Shown piece by piece: positions 21,192-25,595 of a stretch of 54,008 bases of DNA. How positions within the stretch are numbered: position 1 is the first letter of the stretch; the number at the start of each line of letters is the position of its first letter. The notes beneath the pieces were generated by a model. It worked only from the letters and a program-made list of their open reading frames with translations, was not told where the DNA came from and ran no database searches. The translations under genes were made by a program, and so were the position numbers. The DNA is from Thermovirga sp. (GTDB lineage Bacteria > Synergistota > Synergistia > Synergistales > Thermovirgaceae). Location: NCBI GenBank assembly GCA_012523215.1, contig JAAYIZ010000209.1:1-54008 (forward strand). Direction: 5' to 3'.

Positions 21192-22962
<1,771 letters not shown>

Positions 22963-23043
22963 AATCATGACGGTGCACCATTCCTCGCCGGAGGAGAAGT
23001 TTGCGATGGCGAAGAGAGCAATTCTATCGGGGGAGAGCGCCTT

Positions 23044-24774
23044 ATGACCTCGGGTGTCCATGAGCTCCAGGAGATGGTCCTCCTTTCGCTTTCGATTTTC
23101 GTCTTCTTTTTCGCAATCCAGAGGATATCGAAGGTGACCCTGGAAAGGGACCAATACCAATTCCTCAAGGATATCTGCCTTGTGGCTGCGTGGGGTATAT
23201 GCGGGGTCTGGTCCCCTGATTCCACGGTCCGGCTCGTGGTGGCCATGGGCCTCCTGTCGACCATCTTCGGCGTCGGCCAGAGAGCCAGGCCGAGGATGCC
23301 CTGGTCCCTGGGTTTCTTCGGCATCGGCATTGTCTTCGCCACCTTGGGGCTGGGAATATCCTTCATCGGTTTCCCCGGCGGGAGCTACCTCTTCCTCAAC
23401 CGGTACTCTTCCATGTTGGTCACGGCGCTTTGGGTCGGACTGTTTCCCCTCCTCCTGCAGGAGATGGACCAGGTGCCCGGCCTGGCGGGATTCCTCTCCG
23501 CCGTGACATGGATTGTCATGCTCATCGTCACGGGCCTTTCGAAGCAGCATATCCAGGGCGCCTTTTATATAACCCTCGTGGGGGTGTCCATCCTTGCCGT
23601 ATTCTGGAGCCGCCACGGTCACTCCTACCAACGCCTCGGGGAACCTATGGCCGCCCTCTGGGGAACCCTGATAGCCGGCACTTCCATCATGGGTGTCAGC
23701 AAAGGCGTGACTTTTTCCACCCTCATGCTCATCCCCCTTGGACTTTTTGCCATACCCATGGTCGAGGCCTCCGTCCACATCGTCAGCCGAGCCTTCTCCT
23801 CCCGTTCCCAGGGCTCCCTTTTCCTCTACAGGAGGCTTGTGAGCAGGGGTATGGACCATACGCCGGCCGTCCGATCGGTGGGCTCCCTTTGCGCGGTCAT
23901 GGGAGCGGCGGTGGCCAGCTTCCAACTGAGGGACGAGAACATGGCCCTGGCGGCCCTCCTGTCATCGACGATCCTGCTGGGCGGCCTCCTTTTCGTCGTT
24001 TCCTCGGGAAAGAGGAAGTCCGTATCGACACGCTCCACCCTGTGGGGGGCGCCCATCGACAGCATATCGGCCGATTACGCCCTGGGCCGCACCCGGTCAC
24101 TGATTATCAAGGGGGGATCCGGCCGTTATTTCGTAACCCTGGACGCCCTCTCGGCACTTAGAGTGAAGGAAGACAAACATTTCAGGGAGATAGTGGCCGG
24201 TGCCGACCTGGTCCTTCCCGATGGCAAGGGTTTGACCTGGGCTCTCGGTTTCCTGGGGATTCACGCCCTTCAAAGAATCCCCGGCGTTGAATTCGTTGAG
24301 CGGTTGTGCAGGCTCGCCTCGATGGAGGGGTGGCCCGTTTTCCTGCTTGGGAGCGCCCCGGGCGTGGCCGAAAAGGCCGCTCAAAACCTGAAAACCCTTT
24401 ACCCGGGTCTTGTGATCGGCGGCGCCAGGCATGGCTATATAGAAGCCGCGGAAATGCCGCGTTTGCTCGATGAGATCAAAAATTCGGGTTCCCGATTCAT
24501 CTTCGTCGGAATGGGAGTTCCCAGGCAAGAAACCTGGATACACGAATATCATCGCCAACTGCCGGGCACTATATCGATAGGCGTGGGAGGCAGCTTCGAC
24601 GTTATTTCGGGCAACCTGAGAAGGGCGCCCCTTTTCCTGCAGAAGGCGGGTCTCGAATGGTTATTCAGGCTCATCCAGGAACCCTGGAGGTGGAGCCGGG
24701 TGCGCCGTCTTCCTCTTTTCGTGTACCACGTGATCCTCACAAAACTAGGATTCTCCCATCAGAAAGGGGAATGA
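23044..24774 (+). CDS. Degenerate WecA/TagO-like membrane domain fused to a TagA/WecG (GT26) glycosyltransferase
   Basis: The 576-residue protein has two halves. Residues about 355-560 form a complete GT26 domain: DGKG with Asp393, LLGSAPGVAEKAA, FVGMGVPRQETW, IGVGGSFDVISG and LEWLFRLIQEP. Such enzymes add N-acetylmannosamine(uronate) to a lipid-linked GlcNAc. Residues 1-325 are a membrane domain with about ten hydrophobic segments. By eye it aligns with WecA/TagO/MraY transferases, but the catalytic motifs are changed: DD becomes Gly78-Gln79, NxxNxxDGxDG keeps only Asp142, Gly146 and Leu147, GDSG becomes Gly199-Glu200-Pro-Met, and the HxHH box becomes Phe260-Leu-Tyr-Arg. It is therefore probably an inactive membrane anchor. 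Confidence 0.85.
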   Translation: MTSGVHELQEMVLLSLSIFVFFFAIQRISKVTLERDQYQFLKDICLVAAWGICGVWSPDSTVRLVVAMGLLSTIFGVGQRARPRMPWSLGFFGIGIVFATLGLGISFIGFPGGSYLFLNRYSSMLVTALWVGLFPLLLQEMDQVPGLAGFLSAVTWIVMLIVTGLSKQHIQGAFYITLVGVSILAVFWSRHGHSYQRLGEPMAALWGTLIAGTSIMGVSKGVTFSTLMLIPLGLFAIPMVEASVHIVSRAFSSRSQGSLFLYRRLVSRGMDHTPAVRSVGSLCAVMGAAVASFQLRDENMALAALLSSTILLGGLLFVVSSGKRKSVSTRSTLWGAPIDSISADYALGRTRSLIIKGGSGRYFVTLDALSALRVKEDKHFREIVAGADLVLPDGKGLTWALGFLGIHALQRIPGVEFVERLCRLASMEGWPVFLLGSAPGVAEKAAQNLKTLYPGLVIGGARHGYIEAAEMPRLLDEIKNSGSRFIFVGMGVPRQETWIHEYHRQLPGTISIGVGGSFDVISGNLRRAPLFLQKAGLEWLFRLIQEPWRWSRVRRLPLFVYHVILTKLGFSHQKGE

Positions 24775-24778
24775 TGTT

Positions 24779-25246
24779 TTGACGATCAACGCCGGACAGC
24801 TCATGCACAGGGACCTTTCCTCCGTTTCCGAGGAGGATCATGTCCTTGATGCTGTACACCTGCTTTACAGCCAGCGACTCTCCGGCGTCCCCGTGATCAG
24901 GGACGACTGGGTACTCCAGGGATACCTCTCGGAAAGGGACATCCTTCGAAGGGCCACGCCCACCTTTCTCGAAGTGTTGGCCCAGAGTTCCTTCCTCGAT
25001 GACTCCGAGGGCGACCTTTTCGAAAGGTTGAAGCAGATAGGGGACATGAAGGTCAAGGACGTGATGAACCCCGACCCCATCTTCGTCAGGCCAACGGAGA
25101 GCCTCATGACCGTCGTGGACCTGATGCTCAGGAAGGGCCTGAAGAGGCTGCCCGTGGTGGAAGGTCGCAAACTGGTCGGAGTGATCGAGCGGGGAGGTTT
25201 TTGCGAATTCATGATGGAAGGCAATAAATTCGATGAAGCCAGGTGA
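24779..25246 (+). CDS. CBS-domain pair protein coupled to the V-type ATPase operon
   Basis: The 155-residue protein consists of two CBS domains (about 8-60 and 90-145) around a charged insert. Visible features are LSGVPVIRDDWVLQGYLSERDI and VKDVMNPDPIFVRP ending in RLPVVEGRKLVGVIERG. CBS pairs bind adenine nucleotides and act as energy sensors. The TTG start lies 4 nt after the glycosyltransferase stop, and its own end overlaps the first ATPase gene by 14 nt. A role in sensing energy for that complex is an inference from position. Confidence 0.8.
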   Translation: MTINAGQLMHRDLSSVSEEDHVLDAVHLLYSQRLSGVPVIRDDWVLQGYLSERDILRRATPTFLEVLAQSSFLDDSEGDLFERLKQIGDMKVKDVMNPDPIFVRPTESLMTVVDLMLRKGLKRLPVVEGRKLVGVIERGGFCEFMMEGNKFDEAR

Positions 25247-25595
25247 ACCCCAGGCCTTTGAAGATCCCGACGCCGAGATCGAATCCTTCAGGAAGATCCT
25301 CGAGGCCAGGCTGGAGGAGGAGAAAGCACTCCTCCGGGAAGAGCAGGAGGAAGCCCTGGGAAGGATAGGAGAACTGGAGGAGCAATCCATCGCCCAGGCC
25401 GAAAAGGAGTGGACGGACTACGAAGAAACGCTCCTGTCGTCCAGCGGTTCCTTCATGGAAGACCTCAGATGCAAGATGACTTCCCTCCTCGATCCCCTCC
25501 TGGAAAAAATGGCGACTGAAATGTTTGTCGAGAGATCTGTCAATGCGATCCTCCCCTCCGAGGTCCGGGATTCAAGAGGAGGTCAGGCCTTTTGA
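25233..25595 (+). CDS. V/A-type ATPase peripheral-stalk subunit (G/H-like)
   Basis: A 120-residue, strongly charged protein with a long predicted coiled coil at about 15-70, rich in Glu, Lys and Arg, as in stalk subunits G/H that pair with subunit E. Identification rests on its position as the first gene of the ATPase operon and on the coiled coil, since this subunit is poorly conserved. The ATG lies inside the CBS gene and the stop overlaps the TTG of subunit I. Confidence 0.65.
   Translation: MKPGEPQAFEDPDAEIESFRKILEARLEEEKALLREEQEEALGRIGELEEQSIAQAEKEWTDYEETLLSSSGSFMEDLRCKMTSLLDPLLEKMATEMFVERSVNAILPSEVRDSRGGQAF

Follow-up and report, generated by a model that had tools for sequence, protein, structure and literature searches.

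Enzymes of the WecA/MraY type are antibiotic targets and compete for a scarce carrier, undecaprenyl phosphate, and those of the MraY type are dimers. In MraY of A. aeolicus, residues D117, D118, D265 and H324 were inferred to be catalytic from the structure and from mutants (PMC4790310). The GT26 glycosyltransferase TagA, described from Thermoanaerobacter italicus and B. subtilis, is a peripheral protein of about 245 amino acids with no transmembrane domain, whose C-terminal appendage binds the membrane and folds the active site, and the membrane is needed for activity (PMC6493773). Such enzymes act in the secondary cell-wall polymer (SCWP) pathway of Paenibacillus alvei, in which tagO, tagA and csaB share one transcript and where TagA, the UDP-GlcNAc 2-epimerase MnaA and CsaB together produce pyruvyl-ManNAc-GlcNAc-PP-lipid in vitro (PMC6030368). 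Outer-membrane proteins of the SlpA/OmpM type that bear SLH domains have been reported in the Synergistetes, a diderm phylum (PMC9388160).

The locus analysed here, from Thermovirga sp. (Synergistota), encodes a GT26 domain fused to a membrane domain that appears to be a catalytically dead relative of WecA. It lies in a window of 54,008 nucleotides, the whole stretch of DNA that was analysed (contig JAAYIZ010000209.1).

A GT26 glycosyltransferase on a membrane domain

The open reading frame of the fusion (23044-24774, plus strand) was called with the correct coordinates and frame; it includes the stop codon, contains zero internal stops and encodes 576 amino acids. Upstream lies a gene for seryl-tRNA synthetase (SerS; 21679-22962, plus), named from its ORF sequence. 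Downstream, outside the fusion, a CBS-pair protein (24779-25246, plus) and a small coiled-coil V-ATPase-linked ORF, together spanning 24779-25595, separate the fusion from a V-type ATPase operon; a CBS gene follows the fusion in several other families too. An antisense ORF of 323 amino acids (22954-23925, minus) that covers the first half of the fusion is likely a mere shadow, due to high GC, of the conserved plus-strand gene and was disregarded.

Residues 330-570 (24031-24753, plus) form the GT26 domain, complete with the C-terminal membrane-binding appendage. The fusion to a TagA-type enzyme, proposed in the first-pass annotation, is confirmed by PF03808 (5.8e-61 over residues 387-552; 205.6 bits against a cut-off of 27.4), by TIGR00696 (7.9e-51; 172.3 against 69) and by the TagA structure PDB 7mpk, which matches residues 330-567 at 1.1e-47. 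On these profile matches the domain certainly belongs to the WecG/TagA/CpsF family. The TagA residues Thr37 (catalysis), Asp65 (general base), Arg214 and Arg221 (the appendage arginine) correspond to T365 (24136-24138), D393 (24220-24222), R542 and R549 (24688-24690), all on the plus strand and each invariant in 52/52 full-length Synergistales members. Likeness to TagA thus extends over the whole GT26 domain, appendage included, and the difference is that the GT26 domain of the fusion sits on a membrane domain of 11 helices. The predicted activity is transfer of ManNAc from UDP-ManNAc to GlcNAc-PP-undecaprenol, with both donor and acceptor presumed from the family; the TarA equivalog model scores 156, under its cut-off of 350, so the sequence does not pin down which sugar is transferred. 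Among 61 genomes GT26 is nearly always fused to the membrane domain, a single stand-alone paralogue having been found (G045, contig C6, locus L062).

The membrane domain has the fold of WecA and MraY

The N-terminal polytopic domain (residues 1-325; 23044-24018, plus) had been aligned by eye with WecA, TagO and MraY. In ordinary searches it is silent: the domain of the window protein alone gave no Pfam, NCBIfam or PDB sequence match, the PF00953 profile matched 0/52 Synergistales members at E<=1, and a plasmid search with the N domain of this family returned zero matches. The by-eye claim therefore needed stronger tools. Names that did surface in the Pfam, NCBIfam, PHROGs and PDB sequence searches, such as SLATT_6 and DUF7670, were each below cut-off and not shared with relatives, and were rejected as noise.

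We then compared a profile of 52 N-domain sequences with 21 intact Synergistota proteins of the WecA type using hhalign. The two aligned at E=5e-5 across 196 columns (0.12 for the reversed control; 0.0084 against MraY), with all four catalytic motifs in register: GQ79 with DD, DQVPG with DGxNG, LGEPM with LGDGG and LYRRLVSRG with FHHLLVDKG. AlphaFold2 models, built as ligand-free monomers, reached a pLDDT of 84.7 for the N domain and 89.5 for the full-length protein, and in a Foldseek search of the N-domain model against the PDB the top 30 chains were all MraY or DPAGT1 at probability 1.00, the next match falling to 0.13. The alignment made by eye was thus right, and no other membrane family competes for the fold. 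The best solved structural matches are MraY (PDB 4j72, 5jnq, 9zno and 8tlu; TM-score about 0.6-0.7), from which the fusion nevertheless differs in its low identity (10-15%), in lacking the catalytic residues and in substrate and pathway; moreover, the genome has an intact MraY of its own.

The plan of WecA/MraY is matched in the order of the helices, in the periplasmic hairpin that joins helices 4 and 5 and in where the basic cytosolic loops lie; the last of the 11 helices is an addition to it. Judging from loop charges in the model, this extra helix would place the C terminus, and with it GT26, in the cytosol. In a tree, all fusion domains formed one group (100/99) that adjoined the WecA-type enzymes (92/80), apart from MraY. 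This tree carries a long-branch warning, which makes the placement beside WecA, as opposed to elsewhere in the superfamily, likely rather than certain, and the N domain thus likely descends from a WecA-type paralogue. The same tree contains a third intact type of polyprenyl-phosphate sugar transferase, apart from both MraY and WecA, at L065, L066 and L067 (genomes G026, G017 and G056).

Catalytic residues are missing throughout the family

In contrast to WecA/TagO (PF00953), whose fold it shares, the domain lacks the DD pair, the Asp of GDxGS and all three histidines, has a different set of invariant residues and carries GT26. The site of the DD pair is Gly78-Gln79 (23275-23280, plus), and the pair is present in 0/52 full-length Synergistales members and 0/4 deep-branch relatives, bearing out its reading as a catalytic loss. 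The former HHH loop (residues 262-272; 23827-23859, plus) has YRR in place of the histidines in the window protein and L-Y-(R/H/G/S)-x among the 52 relatives, so this second loss stands as well; Y262, G269 and H272 are invariant in the loop.

The other two motifs are less telling. Pro145, at the second Asp of DGxDG, had been taken as a sign of death; this position is uninformative, since Asn occupies it in most of the Synergistota's intact WecA proteins (DGMNG). The first Asp of this motif, D142, is retained and invariant, as is G146, in the loop DQVPGLAG (residues 142-149; 23467-23490, plus). The replacement of GDSG, or GDGG, by GEPM in the former GDxGS loop (residues 190-202, with R190 invariant; 23611-23649, plus) holds for the window protein, which has Glu at the Asp site, but not as a family trait: relatives carry Lys, Gln, Leu, Thr or, rarely, Asp. 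What decides the matter is the loss of the DD pair and of the histidines.

The losses in 52/52 relatives exclude local decay, and no homologue with intact motifs was found: as the first-pass annotation had asked, relatives share both the fusion and the lost motifs across the phylum. We know of no WecA/MraY superfamily member that acts without the DD pair and the GDxGS Asp. As judged from its sequence, the N domain would be a pseudoenzyme that has lost its catalytic residues and is nonetheless selected and widely conserved; to our knowledge it would be the first in this superfamily.

The fusion reaches into a deep-branching sister family

Orthologues of the fusion occur in 177/188 Synergistota genomes and in 115/116 of the good ones. 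Together with the losses in 52/52 relatives, this rules out a local frameshift or decay of the window copy. In one genome (G008; L048, 4296-6056, on the same record as L007) the fusion is read in two overlapping frames of 284 and 340 amino acids, split near residue 275; since the other full-length relatives are whole, this is probably a sequencing or assembly frameshift.

A deep-branching sister family (genomes G061-G064; loci L120, L121, L122 and L126) has the fusion architecture too. The HMM of the window's family matches its N domains at 1e-24 to 6e-18. By hmmscan, three of the four pass PF00953 with 34-37 bits against a cut-off of 27; the fourth, L121, scores 23.2 bits and reaches the cut-off, with 27 bits, in the genome search alone. 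When one of these domains was run against plasmids by tblastn, only ordinary TagO-type genes were hit (8e-18). That the deep-branch domains mostly exceed the PF00953 cut-off, though they lack the DD pair, provides a link to WecA at the level of sequence.

The deep branch is a mosaic: L122 has two histidines (LYHHLL) and L126 has the Asp (LGDELS), the DD pair being absent in both. The simplest reading of this pattern is that DD would have been lost early, before the families split, with the other losses following later. As read from the sequences, the deep branch has Lys for R190, Arg for H272 and Thr for D43. SerS is found upstream of the fusion even here, a sign that the fusion has been inherited vertically since the phylum's ancestor. 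In L120-L122 and L126 the two are separated by a conserved gene of secreted appearance, called on the opposite strand, which is present also in L050, L051 and L053; a C-terminal processing protease follows in L120-L122.

GT26 and the WecA fold are each familiar on their own, but in the open-access papers searched we found no earlier description of their fusion with a WecA part that is dead, under selection and spread across a phylum.

Strong purifying selection acts on the dead domain

Omega is 0.075-0.088 for the N domain, 0.095-0.099 for the GT26 half and 0.126 for intact WecA; purifying selection on the dead domain is strong, and tighter than that on its GT26 partner or on intact WecA. Ten N-domain columns are invariant (D43, G102, F107, D142, G146, R190, W206, Y262, G269 and H272), and seven of them fall in the four loops that once held the catalytic residues (hypergeometric p=0.001; we drew the loop boundaries from the model). 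The strong selection, together with this invariance in the old loops, shows that the domain is functional and favours a ligand-binding role. The old catalytic pocket may have been rebuilt rather than abandoned, and D142, R190, Y262, H272, E241 and K220 would line the putative new one.

The surrounding genes resemble a pyruvylated wall-polymer pathway

The genome of the window itself encodes an intact WecA (contig C28), which the first-pass annotation had suggested looking for, followed by a UDP-GlcNAc 2-epimerase, and an intact MraY (contig C170) within a murF-mraY-murD-like cluster. An intact MraY and an intact WecA-type enzyme accompany the fusion in the gene set of nearly all surveyed genomes. 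The UDP-GlcNAc 2-epimerase WecB is present in 60/61 genomes and adjoins WecA in 46/58 (counted by hand), pyruvyltransferases of the CsaB family are present in 60/61 and SLH proteins in 52/61; the metagenome-assembled genome (MAG) that contains the window yielded no SLH protein. WecA/TagO, the epimerase, TagA and CsaB are all present in this genome; wecA and the fusion are not adjacent.

The steps predicted in the Synergistota are those of the P. alvei pathway, TagO-TagA-CsaB plus MnaA. The arrangement differs: TagA is a separate protein in P. alvei and the genes lie together, whereas in the diderm Synergistota the genes are dispersed and TagA is joined to the pseudo-WecA. On gene content, the simplest reading is that the fusion would supply a pyruvylated wall polymer with its ManNAc-GlcNAc-PP-undecaprenol unit, both sugar and polymer being presumed from these parallels.

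Possible roles of the dead domain

In order to rationalise these observations, we propose, as a reading with an even chance of being correct, that the fusion is a TagA-type ManNAc transferase whose pseudo-WecA domain docks GlcNAc-PP-undecaprenol for such a polymer. The intact WecA encoded elsewhere would make GlcNAc-PP-undecaprenol and WecB, encoded next to it, would supply UDP-ManNAc. The dead domain would dock undecaprenyl-PP-GlcNAc at its old product site and present the acceptor to the active site of GT26, which would add ManNAc (beta) from UDP-ManNAc at the cytosolic face of the inner membrane; CsaB would then probably pyruvylate the disaccharide lipid, which would go into a secondary cell-wall polymer. 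Docking is preferred to a scaffold, an anchor or new chemistry because the invariant residues gather at the old product site. Speaking against docking, GT26 keeps the appendage by which ordinary TagA binds membranes (PMC6493773) and might do without a second means of docking lipid, and the wall polymer sits uneasily with the absence of SLH proteins from the window's own MAG, though most relatives have one. Alternatively, the pseudo-WecA domain may pair with the real WecA as a heterodimer and pass its product straight to GT26, acting as a scaffold or allosteric partner and not as a lipid holder. We regard this as unlikely but worth keeping in view: an intact WecA accompanies the fusion in nearly every surveyed genome, the tree derives the dead domain from a WecA-type paralogue, and MraY of A. 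aeolicus is a dimer (PMC4790310), yet a dimer interface would lead one to expect conserved membrane-facing helices, the invariant residues are instead concentrated in the former catalytic loops, and wecA and the fusion are not genomic neighbours. Selection and invariant residues do not separate a lipid holder from a WecA scaffold.

Still less probable is a domain that is only a membrane anchor, its old loops being kept for folding. With 11 helices and, as loop charges suggest, its C terminus in the cytosol, the domain would tether GT26 at the membrane, and ordinary TagA is active only with membrane (PMC6493773); however, the TagA appendage is intact in the fusion, which makes a plain anchor look redundant, the dead domain is more conserved than GT26 (omega 0.08 against 0.097), and invariant D, R, Y and H residues lie in cytosolic loops. 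That the domain has acquired a new catalytic or transport activity, such as phosphosugar transfer without DD or lipid flipping, strikes us as very improbable. Its invariant or near-invariant set (D43, D142, R190, K220, E241, Y262 and H272) does differ from the ancestral one, but R190, H272 and D43 are replaced in the deep branch, so the set is not phylum-wide, and the superfamily offers, as far as we know, no active precedent in which the DD pair and the Asp of GDxGS are missing. Decay of this copy alone, or a misleading likeness in hydrophobic spacing, would fit the lack of single-sequence Pfam or PDB sequence matches in Synergistales members, but has next to no chance of being right and is already refuted by the fold match, the transitional relatives, the losses in 52/52 and purifying selection. 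We know of no biochemistry for any member of the fusion family. Taking lipid docking and heterodimerisation together, we lean slightly towards the view that the dead domain is an ancient half of the protein, regulatory or channelling in function, that binds GlcNAc-PP-undecaprenol or pairs with WecA; a single membrane complex would then carry out the opening two steps of an envelope glycan. If true, this would be a phylum-wide hallmark of the Synergistota. A strongly conserved dead WecA joined to the enzyme that acts next in the pathway would offer a direct handle on how lipid intermediates are handed over between membrane enzymes, and it draws attention to an envelope glycan of the Synergistota about which little is known and which may serve to tether the outer membrane.
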